Source: Geminicoccaceae bacterium (GTDB lineage Bacteria; Pseudomonadota; Alphaproteobacteria; Geminicoccales; Geminicoccaceae). From it: a stretch of DNA of 49,149 nucleotides. Location: contig JAGREO010000146.1 in assembly GCA_020446525.1 (NCBI GenBank), positions 1 through 49,149 of the forward strand, in the 5' to 3' direction. A model generated the notes under the pieces. It was not told where the DNA came from. It ran no database searches and saw only the letters and a list, made by a program, of their open reading frames with translations. Shown here piece by piece: positions 42,272 to 49,149 of the stretch; positions within the stretch are counted from its first letter, which is position 1, and each line of letters begins with the position of its first letter. Position numbers and translations under genes: made by a program.

Positions 42272-42481
42272 GTGTCGTTCAGGCTCGGCATGACGTCGAG
42301 GTCGCTGCGCCTGCTGGACGCGACGTCGACGCCCATACCCATCGCCCCGCCGCCTCCGCCACCCCCTCCGCCGCCTCCACCTCCGCCCCCGCCGCCGGGC
42401 GCACCGGTGCTGCTGGTTACGGAGAACGGTGAGCGGATCGTGACGGAGAACGACGACCCCATCGAACTGGAGTCCGCCTGA
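42272..42481 (+). CDS. Small polyproline protein (17 consecutive prolines)
   Basis: 69 residues from GTG 42272, one base after the previous stop. Residues 1-25 are basic/hydrophobic and 26-42 are seventeen prolines. The tail is a two-fold repeat, LLVTENGERIV then TENDDPIELESA, similar in style to short acidic repeats seen in phage tail-module proteins. Such a proline run would need elongation factor P to translate. The codons vary (CCG, CCT, CCA, CCC), so the run is unlikely to be a simple sequence-slippage artefact. Its stop overlaps the spike-like gene's ATG (TGATG). Possible function: rigid linker or anchoring partner. Confidence 0.72.
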   Translation: MSFRLGMTSRSLRLLDATSTPIPIAPPPPPPPPPPPPPPPPPGAPVLLVTENGERIVTENDDPIELESA

Positions 42482-44817
42482 TGGCGAACAAGCAGATCCA
42501 CGAACTTGCTCCCGCAGCGACCCTGACGCCCGACGACCGCATCGTAGTCTCGACGGCTTCGGGCAATCTCTCGCGCAACACCACACTCGGGGCCCTGCCC
42601 TTCAAGGACGCCGACGGCGCGGCCGTCGTTCGTCCGATCGCCGACAAGCTCGCCGAGCAGGCGTCGGTACGTGATTTCGGTGCCGTCGGCGACGGCTCGG
42701 CCGACGACGCACCGGCGTTTCGCGCCGCACTCGCGGCTCGTGCGTCGATCTTCGTGCCGCCCGGCACCTACAGGCTGGCCGGCATCGTCGACGTGCTCCC
42801 CACCCGCCGCATCCTCGGCGCCGGCCGTGACGTCACCACCATCGTCGCCGAGGGCGATCGGGCCTTCGTCTTCCAGCGCAACGAAGGTGCCTTCGTGGTC
42901 GATCCGGGCAGCGCGTCGGACTGGAACCGCTCGTCGATCGCGGGCCTGACCATCCGCATGACCCGGGGCGGCATCAAAGCCTTCGGTCACGAGTTCCGCG
43001 CCACCGACATCGGCTTTTTCGGCGGCGCCGCCACCGGGCCCGCCGACGAGCACGGCTGGTGCCTCGATCTGGTCGATGCCAACGAGTGCCATCTGTCGGG
43101 GATCAACGCCGGCTATGGCGGCGGCACCCGCCATCGGATGAACGCCAACGGCATTCGCTGGCGGGCGCAGACGGCGGGCGTGAACTATGGAGACAGCCTG
43201 GTTCAGGAGGTCTCCATCAAGCTCGCCTCGGCGGACACCATCGGCGTGCTGCTGGACGGCCACACCGCGACCGGCAGCACCAATCTCTGCAACAACATGG
43301 TGCTGCAGCGGCTGCAGGTGAACGCGCCGCTCAACGGCAGCGGTCTCGTGCCGCTGCCCAACACGATCGGCGTCAAGCTCTGGAACGCCGCCCGGATCTC
43401 CCTCATCGACTGCAACATCGAGGTTGTCGACGTCGCCTTCGAGGAATATTCCCAGAGCGGCGGTGGTGCTGCCGGTGCCTGTGTCGGCAATGCCTACCTC
43501 AACTGCGCGGTGCACAACTGCAACACCCATTACCGCGACAGCAACGCCGCCACGCCCCGATCGGTGATCCAGCGCACCTTTCTGGGCGGCGACAATCTGG
43601 GACCGATCACCACCGGCAATGCCGGCGACGCCTCGGCACGGGCACAGGATGGCGACAGCTTTCTGCAAGGCGCCTGGATCGCCGGCATCGACGGCAGGCC
43701 GGCGGTTCAGCTGCGTGCCCGCGACAAGGACGTCCTCCTGCTGACCGGTGACAACAAGGGTGCGGGTCAGCCGCTGGCCGACGGTCACCCGGCGCAGATC
43801 GCCCCCTATCACGGCTTCGTCTTCGATCTCCGCTCGACGGAAAGTGCCAAGCTGACCCGGCCGGTGGCCACGGGAGCGGCCAATCCCGACGGTGTCGGTC
43901 CGGCCCTGGCCGACGTGCGGCTCGAACTCGGCAACGGCGAGGGCGACGTGCGCGGCGAGCTCGCCCGAGTGCAGGTCAACGATCCGTTGCATCTGCCGGG
44001 CCGGACGACGGAGCCCAAGCGTCCGATCGACGGCCTCGTGCATCATGCCGCCACGGCCGGAGCCCTGCCGCCCACGGGCGAATGGTATCTGGGTCCGGGG
44101 CTCTACGCCCAGGTCAATGGCGGCGAGCATCCGCCCGTCGCGGTGCAGCGCGGGGCGGTGCCGGAGAAGGAGCGCAACGCCGACTTCACGGTGTCACCGG
44201 CCGATTTCGGCAAGATCCTGCGTGTCGCCAATGCGAGCGACCGTCTGGTGACCATCCCGGCGGGCCTGGTGCAGCCAGGGTCCGGTGCCAGGCGGTTCTG
44301 GGTCATCCGTCAAGGCACCGGCCGCGTCACCTTCGCCGGCACGGGTGGTCTGCCGATCCGCTCGACCGGCGGCGAGCTCTCGATCGCCGAGCAATACCAG
44401 ATGGTCGAGGTGGTGCTGACCGCCAGCGAAGCCTACCTGATCCACATCCTGCCCGACGCCCTCGAGCGCTACGAACGGCCGTTGCACTGGACCGGCGGCA
44501 ATTTCGCCTTGCCGGCAAGCTACCTGGGCAAGCTGGTCCGCGTCAGCCACGGTGACACGAGTGCCCCGCGCTACCTGGAGATTCCGACCGGCATCGTGCC
44601 GCTCGGTATGGATGCGGTGAGCTTCTGGGTGATGAAGGCGGGTCCGGCCGACGTCGAAATCCGCGTCGGCGCCGGCATGACGCTGGCCTCGCCGTCCGGC
44701 ACGCCCTATCGGATCACCCAGGCGAACAAGGTGGTCGAGATCGTCGTCACCAACTCCGTCGGGCGCAACCCGGCACTGGCCGGCAAGCAGCCCGACACGG
44801 TCTACGTCATCGACTGA
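42481..44817 (+). CDS. Phage-tail-spike-like pectate lyase superfamily (beta-helix) protein
   Basis: 778 residues from ATG 42481. The N-terminus MANKQIHELAPAATLTPDDRIVV resembles the short virion-attachment motif of tail fibres. VRDFGAVGDGSADDAPAFRAALAA at about 63-86 is the Pectate_lyase_3/GH28-like opening, followed by a right-handed beta-helix (about 85-400). The C-terminus has two similar modules (about 566-655 and 672-775) starting DFTVSPADFGKILRV and NFALPASYLGKLVRV and sharing FWVI/FWVM and EVV/EIV strands. There is no signal peptide. Such proteins bind or cleave polysaccharides. No phage structural genes flank it: it lies between glycosyltransferase genes and an O-antigen ligase. The last 16 bases overlap the convergent ligase gene. 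Confidence 0.85.
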   Translation: MANKQIHELAPAATLTPDDRIVVSTASGNLSRNTTLGALPFKDADGAAVVRPIADKLAEQASVRDFGAVGDGSADDAPAFRAALAARASIFVPPGTYRLAGIVDVLPTRRILGAGRDVTTIVAEGDRAFVFQRNEGAFVVDPGSASDWNRSSIAGLTIRMTRGGIKAFGHEFRATDIGFFGGAATGPADEHGWCLDLVDANECHLSGINAGYGGGTRHRMNANGIRWRAQTAGVNYGDSLVQEVSIKLASADTIGVLLDGHTATGSTNLCNNMVLQRLQVNAPLNGSGLVPLPNTIGVKLWNAARISLIDCNIEVVDVAFEEYSQSGGGAAGACVGNAYLNCAVHNCNTHYRDSNAATPRSVIQRTFLGGDNLGPITTGNAGDASARAQDGDSFLQGAWIAGIDGRPAVQLRARDKDVLLLTGDNKGAGQPLADGHPAQIAPYHGFVFDLRSTESAKLTRPVATGAANPDGVGPALADVRLELGNGEGDVRGELARVQVNDPLHLPGRTTEPKRPIDGLVHHAATAGALPPTGEWYLGPGLYAQVNGGEHPPVAVQRGAVPEKERNADFTVSPADFGKILRVANASDRLVTIPAGLVQPGSGARRFWVIRQGTGRVTFAGTGGLPIRSTGGELSIAEQYQMVEVVLTASEAYLIHILPDALERYERPLHWTGGNFALPASYLGKLVRVSHGDTSAPRYLEIPTGIVPLGMDAVSFWVMKAGPADVEIRVGAGMTLASPSGTPYRITQANKVVEIVVTNSVGRNPALAGKQPDTVYVID

Positions 44818-46070
44818 CCCGGATGGGCGCGGTGGAGCGACGTCTCGTGTCGCTCCACCGCCTCGTCTCGGGGCTCCGTCACGACGGCGAGAATCATCAG
44901 CAGCACGGTCGCGTGATAGACCGTGTTGAAATAGTTCTGCAGCACGCTCTGGGTCACCATGTCGGCGGCGAGCACCAGCATCAACGCGCGCCGGGCCGGT
45001 ACGGCTTCAATCGCCGCGGCGCGCAGCGTGCGCGCGAGCATCCCGCCGATCAGCAGCGTCACCATCAGCAGTCCGGGCAGCCCCGCCTCGAAATAGAACC
45101 GCACGAATTCGTTGTGCGGCCATTCCAGCATCCGCCCGCCTTCGATCCACGGTCGACCTTCGGTCATCATCGACCGGACCGCGCCGATGCCGTGGCCGAA
45201 CGGCCGATCGGCCGCCAGCGCCAGCCAGTGCACCAGGCTGTGCGAGCGGCCGGAGGTGAAATCCGAGGTGCCGTCACCGACCAGTCTCAGCAGGAAAGCG
45301 TCGCTCACGGCGACCGTGTGGACGGCGAACACCACCAGACCCGCGAGCGTCACGAACACGAGCGTGCGCAACTGGCGGCTGCGTTCGGGACCCGCCGCGA
45401 CCGACAGGAGGCCCATCAGCACCAGTGTCAGCAAGGCGGTCCGCGTCGCCGAGAGCAGCACCATGAGCAGGGCCAGGAGCGCCACCAGAAGGGCCGTGAA
45501 GCGTGCGAACCCGCGCCGCTCCACGGCTCCGTTGCAGGCCAGAACGAGGGCGATCGTGCAGAGACTGGCGTGGGTGATGACCGATCCGGTCAGGTCCAGC
45601 CGCATCAGCGCGTCGTGGCCGCGAAGCACCACATTGTCGGCACCGGCGGCGACGGTCACCGCCATGGCCAGCACGTAGAGTCCGAGCACCTTGGCGACGA
45701 GGCCCGCGAGATCGACGTCTTCGAGCGCGTGGGCGAGATGGGGCGCCATCAGCAGGGCGACGATCGGCAGGAGAATCTTGTAGTCCAGGAGATCGAACGT
45801 GCCGCCTGCGTCCAAAAGCGCGATCGTCGTCAGCAGCCACAGGAGCACCACCGGCAGTTCGTGACCGCGGCGGGCGAAGATCGGGCGATACAGGACACAC
45901 GCGCCGGCGAGAAGCGCCACGATCGCCGAGAACAGCGCGACGCGCGCCTGCTGCAGGCCGAGCAGTGCCGCCGCCGAGGAGGACAGGAAGAGAAAGCTCG
46001 TGGCGGCCAGAAAAAGCAGCCGGATCGTGTGCACCATTCGGCCCGTTCGCTCTTGGCGGACCCTCAGCAT
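44802..46070 (-). CDS. O-antigen ligase family protein (WaaL/Wzy-like)
   Basis: 422 residues from ATG 46070; ATG 46034 (MVHTIRLLFLAA) is nearer the first helix and equally plausible. There are about eleven membrane helices, with the conserved Wzy_C loop: SGRSHSLVHWLALAADRPFGHGIG, then EWPHNEFVRFYFEAGLPGLL, in which the R and H residues of the ligase family appear. The R-T-A-L-L-T-L-V segment precedes it. It joins or polymerises lipid-linked glycan on the periplasmic face. No Wzx flippase is in the window. The cytoplasmic tail is charged. The likely substrate is made by the neighbouring glycosyltransferases. Confidence 0.88.
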   Translation of the reverse strand: MLRVRQERTGRMVHTIRLLFLAATSFLFLSSSAAALLGLQQARVALFSAIVALLAGACVLYRPIFARRGHELPVVLLWLLTTIALLDAGGTFDLLDYKILLPIVALLMAPHLAHALEDVDLAGLVAKVLGLYVLAMAVTVAAGADNVVLRGHDALMRLDLTGSVITHASLCTIALVLACNGAVERRGFARFTALLVALLALLMVLLSATRTALLTLVLMGLLSVAAGPERSRQLRTLVFVTLAGLVVFAVHTVAVSDAFLLRLVGDGTSDFTSGRSHSLVHWLALAADRPFGHGIGAVRSMMTEGRPWIEGGRMLEWPHNEFVRFYFEAGLPGLLMVTLLIGGMLARTLRAAAIEAVPARRALMLVLAADMVTQSVLQNYFNTVYHATVLLMILAVVTEPRDEAVERHETSLHRAHPGQSMT

Positions 46071-46098
46071 AAGAGCTGCTTGACGAGTAAATCAACCT

Positions 46099-46809
46099 AT
46101 GATTGATATATTCATCCGGCCAGCCTCGATGGGTTCCATGCTGACGAAAACGAGACCGTTCCCCATGATCGGGCGCGACAGCGCTTTCTTCGGCGTCTCG
46201 CAAACTTGCGCGTTCGTGCTGGCGGCCAATTTCGTCATGCAGGGCATGCGCGGGATGGACAATGGCGAGCTGTGCTTTCGCATCCTGCTCGAAGGTGCCG
46301 TCGCGAGCCTCGTGCTGGCGCTGCTGCCGGCCGCCTGGCCGCCGTCGGCGACGCTGCCGCTGGCGCTCGTGACGGCTCATCTGTTCAACTTTACGCTCAA
46401 CGGCCAGGTGTTCGTCTGCGTCCGCTATTGCCGTTTCTTCCGCCGCTCGCCCGACGTTCTCGACGAGTGGCTGCAAAAGCGCGTCCTCCGTCTCAAAGCC
46501 TCCGGCTGGCTCGACGAGGCCTTGTGTCTGGGCTCGAAGGGCACGGGCGAGAGAGCGCGATCGGCCCGTTCCGACATCGACCTGCGCTTGATCACGCCCG
46601 TCGGCATCGCCGGATGGCTGCGCACCAATCTCCTGCTCCTGTCGTTACGCAGCGAAGCCTTCTTTCGGGCGATCCCGCTCGATCTCTACGCCTATGATCG
46701 CATCGAAAGCCTCAAGCGGTTCGACGGTGCGGAGCCGTTGCTGATCGTCCTCGACCGCAAGGGGCGCCTGGCGCGAACCTTCGCGCACCGGCCCCTGACC
46801 CGCGCCTGA
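46099..46809 (+). CDS. Membrane protein with nucleotidyltransferase-like domain
   Basis: Up to 236 residues. ATG 46099 gives the longest frame, but ATG 46138 (MLTKTRPFPMIG) is possible because AT-rich promoter-like sequence (TTGACG at 46080-46085) covers the first codons. The N-terminal third holds two to three membrane helices (FGVSQTCAFVLAANFVMQG, ILLEGAVASLVLALLP, LALVTAHLFNFTLNG). The C-terminal part has GSKGTGERARSARSDIDLRLI, the G-S...S-D-I-D pattern of NTP_transf_2 enzymes, and PLDLYAYD may supply the third carboxylate. It is coupled (TGATG) to the Alg14-like gene. It may activate or modify the glycan precursor; the substrate is unknown. Confidence 0.7.
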   Translation: MIDIFIRPASMGSMLTKTRPFPMIGRDSAFFGVSQTCAFVLAANFVMQGMRGMDNGELCFRILLEGAVASLVLALLPAAWPPSATLPLALVTAHLFNFTLNGQVFVCVRYCRFFRRSPDVLDEWLQKRVLRLKASGWLDEALCLGSKGTGERARSARSDIDLRLITPVGIAGWLRTNLLLLSLRSEAFFRAIPLDLYAYDRIESLKRFDGAEPLLIVLDRKGRLARTFAHRPLTRA

Positions 46810-47273
46810 TGGCGCTGCACGTCGAACATCGCCGCACCTGCCTCGCCTTTTCGCCGGGCGGCCACCACGCCGAGCTGATGCGCGCGCTCGACGGCATCCG
46901 CTTCACCGACTGCTTCCACGTCACCTTCGCCAGCCAGCGGCCGGACGATCCCCTCGCCCGTCGAACCTATCGCCTGTGCCACCCCCGCCGTGTCCCGGGG
47001 CGCACCCTCGTCAACGTCTTGCAGAGCCTGTGGGTGATCGTTCACGAGCGACCACGCCTCGTGATCTCGAGCGGCGCCGACGTGGCGGTGGCCGTCGTCG
47101 CTTTCGGTCGCCTGCTCGGCGCGCGGACCATTTTCGTCGAGAGTGCCGGCAGCCTCGAGCCGACTCTGGCCGGGCGGCTCGCCTATCCCTTCGCCGACCT
47201 CTTCATCGTCCAGTGGCCCGAGGCGCTCCGCCGCTTTCCGAGAGCCGTGCTGGCCGACGGGCCGCTTCTTTGA
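46809..47273 (+). CDS. Alg14/PssD-like glycosyltransferase subunit
   Basis: 154 residues from ATG 46809, one base overlapping the previous stop. Alg14-family marks are FSPGGHHAELMRALDGI (the G-G-H-x-A-E membrane/UDP-sugar loop), RPRLVISSGADVAVAVVAFGRLLGARTIFVESAG, PTLAGRLAYPFADLFIVQWPE. In eukaryotes Alg14 recruits Alg13 to add the second GlcNAc to dolichol; bacterial PssD/PssE pairs act in exopolysaccharide synthesis. It is the acceptor/membrane half, and the catalytic half follows by a four-base overlap (TTGA). Confidence 0.9.
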   Translation: MALHVEHRRTCLAFSPGGHHAELMRALDGIRFTDCFHVTFASQRPDDPLARRTYRLCHPRRVPGRTLVNVLQSLWVIVHERPRLVISSGADVAVAVVAFGRLLGARTIFVESAGSLEPTLAGRLAYPFADLFIVQWPEALRRFPRAVLADGPLL

Positions 47274-47734
47274 TCACGGTGGCCGTCGGCACCTTCATCC
47301 GCGGTTTCGACGACCTCGTCCGCGCCGCCGACGGTTTGGGTCGTGAAGGTTTCGCGCAAATCGGTCATTCCGCTTTTCGCCCGCAGCATCTCGAATGGGC
47401 GTGCTTCCTGCCGCAGACCGAGCTCTTCGATCGCCTGCGTCGCAGCGAGCTCCTGATCGGCCATGCGGGCATGGGTCTCATCGGCGACGGCCTGCGCGCC
47501 GGATGTCGTCTGATCGTCGTGCCGCGCCGTGGCGCGATCGGTCCGGGCAATCCGATCAACGATCAGCGCGCCTTCGCCCGCAGGCTCGCGAGCATGCTTC
47601 CGATCACGGTCTGCGAGGATTTGCAGCAGCTCCCCGACACCGTCCGCCGGGTTCTTGACGGACCGCGCCCCGGCCCCACACGACGGCGGAGCAACGTGCC
47701 CGAACTGATCGCCGGCTTTCTCGCCCGCGGCTGA
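47270..47734 (+). CDS. Alg13/PssE-like glycosyltransferase subunit
   Basis: 154 residues from TTG 47270, overlapping the Alg14-like stop. GT28 C-terminal domain: ITVAVGTFIRGFDDLVRAAD, FLPQTELFDRLRRSELLIGHAGMGLIGDGLRAGCRLIVVPRR. The H-A-G-x-G loop binds UDP-sugar, and PINDQRAFARRLAS closes the site. Together with the preceding gene it should form a two-chain inverting glycosyltransferase. It ends 47 bases before uvrC and is probably the last gene of a three-gene unit beginning near 46099. Confidence 0.9.
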   Translation: MITVAVGTFIRGFDDLVRAADGLGREGFAQIGHSAFRPQHLEWACFLPQTELFDRLRRSELLIGHAGMGLIGDGLRAGCRLIVVPRRGAIGPGNPINDQRAFARRLASMLPITVCEDLQQLPDTVRRVLDGPRPGPTRRRSNVPELIAGFLARG

Positions 47735-47781
47735 GCCGGCCCGAGCTTGAACGCAGGACGACCACGGCGCACATAGATCGC

Positions 47782-49149
47782 ATGTCCGAAGAGATGGTGC
47801 ACCCTACCGGTCGGGCCGGGGCCCCGACGGGCGCAGCGCTGATCAAATCGCTCTTGCGCAGCCTGCCCAACGAGCCCGGCGTCTATCGCATGATCGACGG
47901 CAAGGGCGCGCTGCTCTATGTCGGCAAGGCTAAGTCGCTCAAGAAACGGGTGGCGTCCTACGTCAAGATCCAGGCCCTGAGTGCGCGTCTCCAGCGGATG
48001 GTGGCGTTGACCCGTGCGATGGAGTTCGTCACGACCTCGAGCGAAGTCGAGGCACTGCTGCTCGAATCGAACCTCATCAAGCGCCATCGGCCGAGCTTCA
48101 ACATCGTCCTGCGCGACGACAAGAGCTTTCCCTACATCTATCTGCGTCACGACCACGCCTTTCCGATGATCGGCAAGCATCGGGGCGCCAAGCGCGAGGA
48201 TATCGACTATTTCGGTCCATTCGCTTCGGCGGGCGCCGTCAACGATACACTCAACGCGCTGCTGCGCGCCTTCCCCTTGCGCAACTGCTCGGATGCCGTC
48301 TTCGACAGCCGCTCGAGACCCTGTCTGCAGTATCAGATCAAGCGCTGCTCGGCTCCCTGCGTCGGGCGTATCGACGCCGCGAGCTACGGCGAGCTGGTGA
48401 GCGAGGTGCACGCCTTTCTGGGCGGGCGCACGCGCGACGTGCAGGAGCGGCTGCAGAAGGAAATGCACGCGGCCGCCGAAGCGCTCGACTTCGAGAAGGC
48501 GGCCGTGCTGCGCGATCGGGTCAAGGCCATCACCCACATCGCCAGCCGTCAGGGCATCAACACGGCGGCGGTCGAGGACGCCGACGTCATCGCCGCGCAC
48601 GAAACCGGCGGACAGGTCTGCGTGCAGGTGTTCTTCTATCGGGGTGGCTGCAACTACGGCAATCGCGCCTACTTCCCGGGCCACACCAGGGATGCCGATC
48701 CGTCCGAGATTCTCGCTGCCTTCGTCTGCCAGTTCTATGCCGAGCGGGCGGCGCCACGCGAGGTGCTGCTCGGTGCCGACATCCCCGAGCGGACGCTGAT
48801 CGAGGATGCGCTCACCACGAAGGCGGAGCATCGCGTGCGGCTTCTCGTGCCGCAGCGCGGCGCCAAATGCCAGCTCGTGCAGATCGCCCGGCAGAACGCC
48901 GAGCAGGCGCTCGCGCGCAAGCTGGCGCAGCAGGAAAGCCAGGCGTTCCTGCTGGGTGCGCTGGCGGAGCGCTTCGCGCTGGACGCCGTGCCCGCGCGCA
49001 TCGAGGTCTACGACAACAGCCACATCCAGGGGGCCCATGCCGTCGGCGCCTTCGTCGTGGCCGGTCCCGAGGGCTTCGATCGCCGCGCCTATCGGACCTT
49101 CACCATCCGCGGCGACGATCTGCAGCCGGGCGACGATTTCGGCATGATG
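47782..49149 (+). CDS. uvrC: UvrC excinuclease subunit, N-terminal part (3' end outside window)
   Basis: 456 residues from ATG 47782, open to the window edge. The GIY-YIG nuclease domain is at about 30-110 (NEPGVYRMIDGKGALLYVGKAKSLKKRV), then a cysteine-rich segment CLQYQIKRCSAPCVGR. The UvrB-binding UVR motif LQKEMHAAAEALDFEKAAVLRDRVKAI follows, and then the start of the RNase H-like C-terminal endonuclease domain (RIEVYDNSHIQGAHAVGAFVV), whose first catalytic aspartate is in YDNSH. With UvrAB it makes both incisions in nucleotide excision repair. About 170 residues, including the helix-hairpin-helix, are missing beyond the window. Confidence 0.96.
   Translation, partial: MSEEMVHPTGRAGAPTGAALIKSLLRSLPNEPGVYRMIDGKGALLYVGKAKSLKKRVASYVKIQALSARLQRMVALTRAMEFVTTSSEVEALLLESNLIKRHRPSFNIVLRDDKSFPYIYLRHDHAFPMIGKHRGAKREDIDYFGPFASAGAVNDTLNALLRAFPLRNCSDAVFDSRSRPCLQYQIKRCSAPCVGRIDAASYGELVSEVHAFLGGRTRDVQERLQKEMHAAAEALDFEKAAVLRDRVKAITHIASRQGINTAAVEDADVIAAHETGGQVCVQVFFYRGGCNYGNRAYFPGHTRDADPSEILAAFVCQFYAERAAPREVLLGADIPERTLIEDALTTKAEHRVRLLVPQRGAKCQLVQIARQNAEQALARKLAQQESQAFLLGALAERFALDAVPARIEVYDNSHIQGAHAVGAFVVAGPEGFDRRAYRTFTIRGDDLQPGDDFGMM

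Follow-up and report, generated by a model that had tools for sequence, protein, structure and literature searches.

A membrane-anchored nucleotidyltransferase-fold protein encoded in a conserved four-gene unit of Geminicoccaceae: a possible function in the modification of lipid-linked glycans

Background

Members of the Pol-beta nucleotidyltransferase (NTase) superfamily share a GS motif, a D-h-D motif and, on a strand that follows, a third acidic residue. To our knowledge, few NTase-fold enzymes outside the LicD type build or decorate glycans. LicD-type proteins of this superfamily, which operate with CDP conjugates, act in capsule building according to the accessible part of PMC11666461, and therefore provide a precedent for an NTase fold working on glycans.

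Split glycosyltransferases of the PssD/PssE type, as far as described in the accessible parts of two papers, act on polyprenyl-PP-sugars (PMC7589315, PMC8993221): PssDE of Rhizobium transfers glucuronic acid onto undPP-linked glucose (PMC7589315), and EpsE/EpsF transfers glucose or galactose onto lipid-linked glucose (PMC8993221). A search of the open-licence literature retrieved no paper joining an NTase, a split glycosyltransferase and Wzy parts; for Geminicoccaceae and exopolysaccharide it retrieved none apparently dealing with the unit described here, and one species description which, in its accessible part, mentions exopolysaccharide in general terms.

The window analyzed here is a stretch of 49,149 nucleotides from a Geminicoccaceae bacterium (GenBank assembly GCA_020446525.1, contig JAGREO010000146.1), in which genes for these kinds of proteins are located side by side.

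Results and discussion

Organization of the four-gene unit

The open reading frame at 46099–46809 (+) codes for a membrane-anchored NTase-fold protein (236 aa), assigned by means of a 22-row alignment and an AlphaFold model. Translation probably starts at M14 (46138), yielding a protein of 223 aa, since most relatives begin near this residue and residues 2–12 are the sole segment of the model with pLDDT below 50. Downstream follow the genes for the two halves of a split GT-B glycosyltransferase of 154 aa each, i.e., an Alg14/PssD-like half (46809–47273, +) and an Alg13/PssE-like half with a TTG start (47270–47734, +). Divergently oriented from the NTase gene, a Wzy_C-family polymerase/O-antigen-ligase-like membrane protein of 422 aa (44802–46070, −) is encoded, the product of which scores 49 bits with Pfam Wzy_C (PF04932; cut-off 31.7).

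The stop codon of the NTase gene and the start codon of the Alg14-like gene have one base in common (TGATG, 46807–46811), and the TGA of the latter (47271–47273) overlaps the TTG start of the Alg13-like gene at 47270. A start codon overlapping the preceding stop codon is available at the NTase/Alg14 junction in 22/22 loci and at the Alg14/Alg13 junction in 20/22, counts which are biased toward overlaps by choosing the start (ATG, GTG or TTG) nearest to each stop. The earlier note described the NTase gene as translationally coupled to the split glycosyltransferase; the overlapping frames agree with this. The Alg13-like gene is followed by uvrC from 47782 onwards, named from a reading of its translation. 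Two long frames on the respective opposite strands (491 aa at uvrC, 47563–49038, −; 427 aa at the Wzy gene, 44823–46106, +) are probably shadows of G+C-rich genes.

Distribution and conservation in Geminicoccaceae

Among 191 genomes related to the window's assembly, 23 contain an NTase match, 22 of them in Geminicoccaceae; the remaining one (L023) is a weak match of 74 residues containing a stop and was excluded from every family count. The gene order, i.e., divergent Wzy, NTase, Alg14-like and Alg13-like, is kept in 22/22 loci, although one Alg13 copy is truncated where its contig ends and one Wzy copy runs beyond its contig. The conserved three-gene unit envisaged in the earlier note accordingly stands with respect to the order of its trio, but has to be extended by a fourth member, the Wzy_C gene at 44802–46070, located outside the trio.

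Of 31 Geminicoccaceae genomes, one and the same set of 22 contains the NTase, the Alg14-like protein and the unit-type Wzy protein, and the other 9 lack all three; the underlying profiles were built from these very loci, so that a highly divergent copy in any of these 9 might escape. Wzy_C proteins in general are commoner, with at least one in 30/31 Geminicoccaceae genomes and five in the genome of the window. The link is therefore to the unit-type Wzy in particular. Three matches of the Wzy profile (G027:C259, G020:C182 and G024:C404) each contain one stop codon, representing either a broken gene or a match running past the gene end. One of the 31 family genomes has an additional, weaker Alg14-like match (G025:C455:2082-2459, L080; E 7.7e-10) and is the only one with two copies.

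When 385 genomes sampled from the class and 398 sampled from the phylum were searched, no NTase homologue of full length lay outside Geminicoccaceae; all other matches span only about model residues 109–168. Nine of the ten loci with such partial matches (L048-L057) hold NTases lacking the hairpin described below, and L053 yielded no open reading frame under the pattern used. Three of these NTases (L048, L049, L052), from other Alphaproteobacteria, are about 230–240 aa long and have a long C-terminal extension behind the NTase domain, which by our own reading is possibly a fused HEPN-type partner. Searches of plasmid and phage collections revealed no NTase relative.

The 20 confirmed loci, selected from 42 pattern-matching stretches, include several Geminicoccaceae MAGs as well as Geminicoccus harenae and G. 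flavidas (L038 and L039). The flanks of the unit vary: all 20 named loci keep the four genes, and a uvrC relative is present in 1/20 (some loci being short). An AMP-binding (acyl-CoA ligase-type) gene is located on the Wzy side in 13/20 named loci, counting the query's own locus (L025-L028, L031-L033, L035, L037-L039, L041, L042). Its position elsewhere is occupied in the window by a gene convergent with the Wzy gene (42481–44817, +), the product of which is pectate-lyase-like (PF12708) and matches phage tail-spike families. Relatives of this gene lie near the unit in 6/20 named loci; hence, it may encode a cellular glycan-active protein rather than belong to a prophage.

Six Alg14-like relatives from outside Geminicoccaceae were inspected for open reading frames with a GS/GG...DxD pattern, supplemented by inspection by eye, and in 0/6 was an NTase-type neighbour present within about 1.5 kb. 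Glycosyltransferases of this type therefore have no general need of the NTase.

The split glycosyltransferase

Both halves score above their Pfam cut-offs in two adjacent genes (Alg14, 48.4 bits, cut-off 27; Glyco_tran_28_C, 26.1 bits, cut-off 22), i.e., the PssD/PssE arrangement is present, and the split Alg14/Alg13-type glycosyltransferase recognized earlier from the sequence is supported at the family level. The equivalog cut-offs of NCBIfam are not reached (PssD, 84.9 of 110 bits; PssE, 56.9 of 120 bits). The Alg14-like alignment (22 rows) retains SxGGH (S15, G17–H19) and, at ≥90 %, E111; these resemble the histidine and glutamate of MurG-type enzymes discussed in the accessible part of the Agl24 paper (PMC8993221). 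H65, G67, G69, D98 and Q99 of the Alg13-like protein are invariant in 21 rows, L017 being left out because it is cut by a contig end. A search of the Alg14-like profile against PDB sequences yielded no match. Since PssDE and EpsE/EpsF extend lipid-linked glucose, the pair is, by analogy, likely to transfer the second sugar onto the lipid carrier.

Conserved motifs of the NTase protein

The 22-row alignment of the NTase protein contains 31 invariant positions. These include G145-S146 (46531–46536, +), D159, I160 and D161 of the predicted metal-binding motif S158-D159-I160-D161 (46570–46581, +), R163, and P193-L194-D195, in which D195 (46681–46683, +) represents the third acidic residue of the triad. 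The superfamily pattern is thereby satisfied (G145, S146, D159, D161 and D195), the corresponding strands of the model being E140–144, E160–165 and E194–199, and the catalytic triad looks intact from the alignment. Since 22/22 loci keep the gene order together with the GS, DID and D residues, the GS...SDID motif in 46099–46809 is not a chance occurrence. Further invariant residues are located in the membrane part (Q48, G49, R51, G52, M53, E57, R61, H94, N101, G102 and Q103).

The latter residues could also be accommodated if the NTase fold were a non-catalytic anchor or scaffold holding the split glycosyltransferase at the membrane, as could the Alg14-like protein which, read from its sequence, lacks an N-terminal membrane helix and starts near its SPGGH motif. 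However, a scaffold would not need the catalytic acidic residues, all of which are invariant in 22/22 homologues, and the Alg14-like relatives outside Geminicoccaceae manage without such a partner gene nearby (6/6). A purely structural function is therefore regarded as unlikely.

Predicted fold and family relationships

The AlphaFold model, based on the same alignment (mean pLDDT 87.6, pTM 0.83), consists of two long helices (residues 55–75 and 82–100) and an alpha/beta domain from residue 118 onward. Its best match by VIA-align is LinB (3jyy; Z 9.8, rmsd 2.9, 111 residues aligned, 13 % identity), followed by rows in the range of Z 5.9–6.7 (MNT proteins 6.7, ANT(4') 6.3, AadA 6.0); the rows are mostly NTases, and a few designed or unrelated proteins also score Z 5.4–6.3. 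Foldseek matches of the full model are weak, with MNT antitoxins as top rows (best E 0.04). On the sequence level, the family profile retrieved the NTase 2rff from the sequences of known structures (E 0.011) with the GS, DID and LD positions aligned, and the single protein no PDB sequence. A profile-profile comparison with soluble NTases gave a probability of 95.5 over 47 columns, favoured by the choice of these NTases as matches of the same profile.

The protein is covered by no family model. The window's NTase has no match to Pfam NTP_transf_2 (PF01909) at E up to 1, with weak matches in 5/22 members (best E 0.0074); NCBIfam MntA is matched weakly in 2/22 (best E 0.023), and a PHROG search gave no match. 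Taken together with the model, the NTase fold of the 46099–46809 product is well supported. The membrane-anchored NTase proposed in the earlier note is thus upheld by hydrophobic helices within the first 110 residues, the predicted fold and an apparently complete triad; a predicted structure lacking the fold, named there as the decisive counter-evidence, is not what was obtained.

The fold matches to LinB, ANT and MNT would agree with a stray NTase of the MNT/aminoglycoside type, serving in a toxin-antitoxin system or in drug inactivation and located beside glycan genes by chance. The linkage to and joint absence with these genes, spanning 22 of 31 genomes, make such a coincidence highly improbable. 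The toxin-antitoxin/drug-resistance reading was rejected on account of the conserved glycan neighbours, the lack of an adjoining HEPN gene and the lack of the C-terminal half of LinB.

The membrane hairpin

The two long helices are predicted to form a membrane hairpin (46261–46398, +), as indicated by the AlphaFold helices and the charge pattern. Mean numbers of K+R are 4.82 before the hairpin, 0.14 in its loop and 2.95 after it; since positive charges thus flank the hairpin and are scarce in the loop, both ends are predicted to be cytoplasmic (positive-inside rule). Pfam GtrA is matched weakly by 3/22 hairpins (best E 0.012), and comparison of the hairpin profile with 29 collected GtrA proteins gave an hhalign probability of 16.9 over 25 columns (0.7 for the unrelated Wzy control), too low to establish a relationship. 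Structure searches with the hairpin predicted alone were uninformative (Foldseek, best E 2.8; VIA-align, best Z 3.2).

The hairpin bears on two further explanations. Firstly, the NTase might supply the unit with a nucleotide-activated sugar or alcohol under release of pyrophosphate, as the triad should allow transfer of NMP onto a phosphate. A soluble product would not call for membrane anchoring, however, and known sugar-1-phosphate nucleotidyltransferases are built on another fold, so that a function in donor synthesis is considered very unlikely. Secondly, the NTase might be a regulator which nucleotidylates (e.g., AMPylates) the glycosyltransferase or the Wzy protein and thereby switches glycan synthesis, in the manner of MNT proteins AMPylating HEPN toxins. 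The closest sequence and Foldseek matches are indeed MNT-type NTases, and the NTase co-occurs tightly with its would-be targets. However, neither the Alg14-like (22 rows) nor the Alg13-like protein (21 rows) contains an invariant tyrosine; invariant serines of the Alg14-like protein are S15 and S87, and Y132, S163 and Y385 are invariant in the Wzy alignment (19 of the 22 rows, leaving out L007, which runs off its contig, L003 with a stop in its translation, and L020). Regulation alone would also hardly explain the strict conservation of the hairpin. This regulatory function appears quite unlikely.

Proposed role in glycan assembly

Because it belongs to the gene unit, the NTase is tied to the assembly of lipid-linked glycans, and, judging from its triad and fold, it may transfer a group containing phosphate. 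One may therefore propose that the NTase decorates or caps a lipid-linked glycan at the cytoplasmic side of the membrane, within a glycan-assembly unit of Geminicoccaceae. The four genes would form a dedicated unit, in which the PssD/PssE-like pair, judged from its family, would extend an undecaprenyl-PP-sugar by a further sugar at the cytoplasmic side of the membrane. Beside this pair, the NTase would reside with its hairpin in the membrane and its catalytic domain in the cytoplasm, and would transfer the phosphate-containing group onto a hydroxyl of the lipid-linked intermediate. This group would be either NMP, with an NTP as donor, or phospho-X taken from NDP-X in the manner of LicD enzymes. 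The Wzy_C protein may then polymerize or ligate the product.

The reaction suggested in the earlier note, transfer of a nucleotidyl or phospho-sugar group to lipid-linked glycan, is thus inferred from the gene neighbours, both as regards the group transferred and the acceptor. The predicted cytoplasmic ends of the hairpin agree with the proposal by placing the NTase domain where nucleotides are; against it speak the nearest structural matches of this domain, which act on antibiotics or HEPN toxins and not on glycans, the lack of a LicD match and the weakness of the NTP_transf_2, MntA and Foldseek matches, and the lack of an NTase-type gene near the six Alg14-like relatives outside Geminicoccaceae. 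Overall, decoration or capping of the glycan is put forward tentatively, at slightly less than an even chance.

In a more specific version, a new class of membrane-bound NTases would attach a nucleotidyl or phospho-alcohol group to an undecaprenyl-linked disaccharide, thereby capping or decorating it. This would be a committed step, following the second glycosyl transfer and preceding polymerization or ligation. Such an apparently undescribed chemistry, confined to Geminicoccaceae, is speculative and somewhat doubtful at present. The conserved association of a membrane-held NTase with both a split glycosyltransferase and a polymerase/ligase suggests a new step of surface-glycan modification.

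Comparison with known systems

The unit's hairpin resembles the GtrA/DPMS transmembrane domain in ending with an NF..N motif, and differs from it in consisting of two helices instead of four, the number in GtrA/DPMS domains.

The minimal NTases of the MNT/NTP_transf_2 type share with the unit's NTase the GS...SDID...D layout and a profile match over about residues 109–168, whereas the membrane hairpin, the invariant R163 and the weak Pfam score set the latter apart. An adjoining HEPN gene, as typical of MNT antitoxins, is lacking, the immediate neighbours in the window belonging to the Wzy_C and Alg14 families and being kept in the 22 loci. In case of the antibiotic NTases (LinB/ANT), LinB provides the best VIA-align match; however, the unit's NTase ends at residue 236, aligns with residues 1–133 of the 265 residues of LinB, lacks the C-terminal half of the latter and is encoded in a glycan-gene neighbourhood. 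The phosphotransferases of the LicD/fukutin type are comparable in the proposed role only, as glycan-acting members of the NTase superfamily with CDP donors (accessible part of PMC11666461), whereas Pfam LicD (PF04991) does not appear among the families listed, up to an E of 1, for any of the 22 members.

The split glycosyltransferase is like PssD/PssE (Cps14F/Cps14G, EpsE/EpsF, Alg14/Alg13) in the presence of both halves, in their order and in sequence family, differing in scores below the NCBIfam equivalog cut-offs and in the preceding NTase gene. Thus, the unit appears to unite known kinds of parts in a conserved and apparently undescribed combination with a membrane hairpin.
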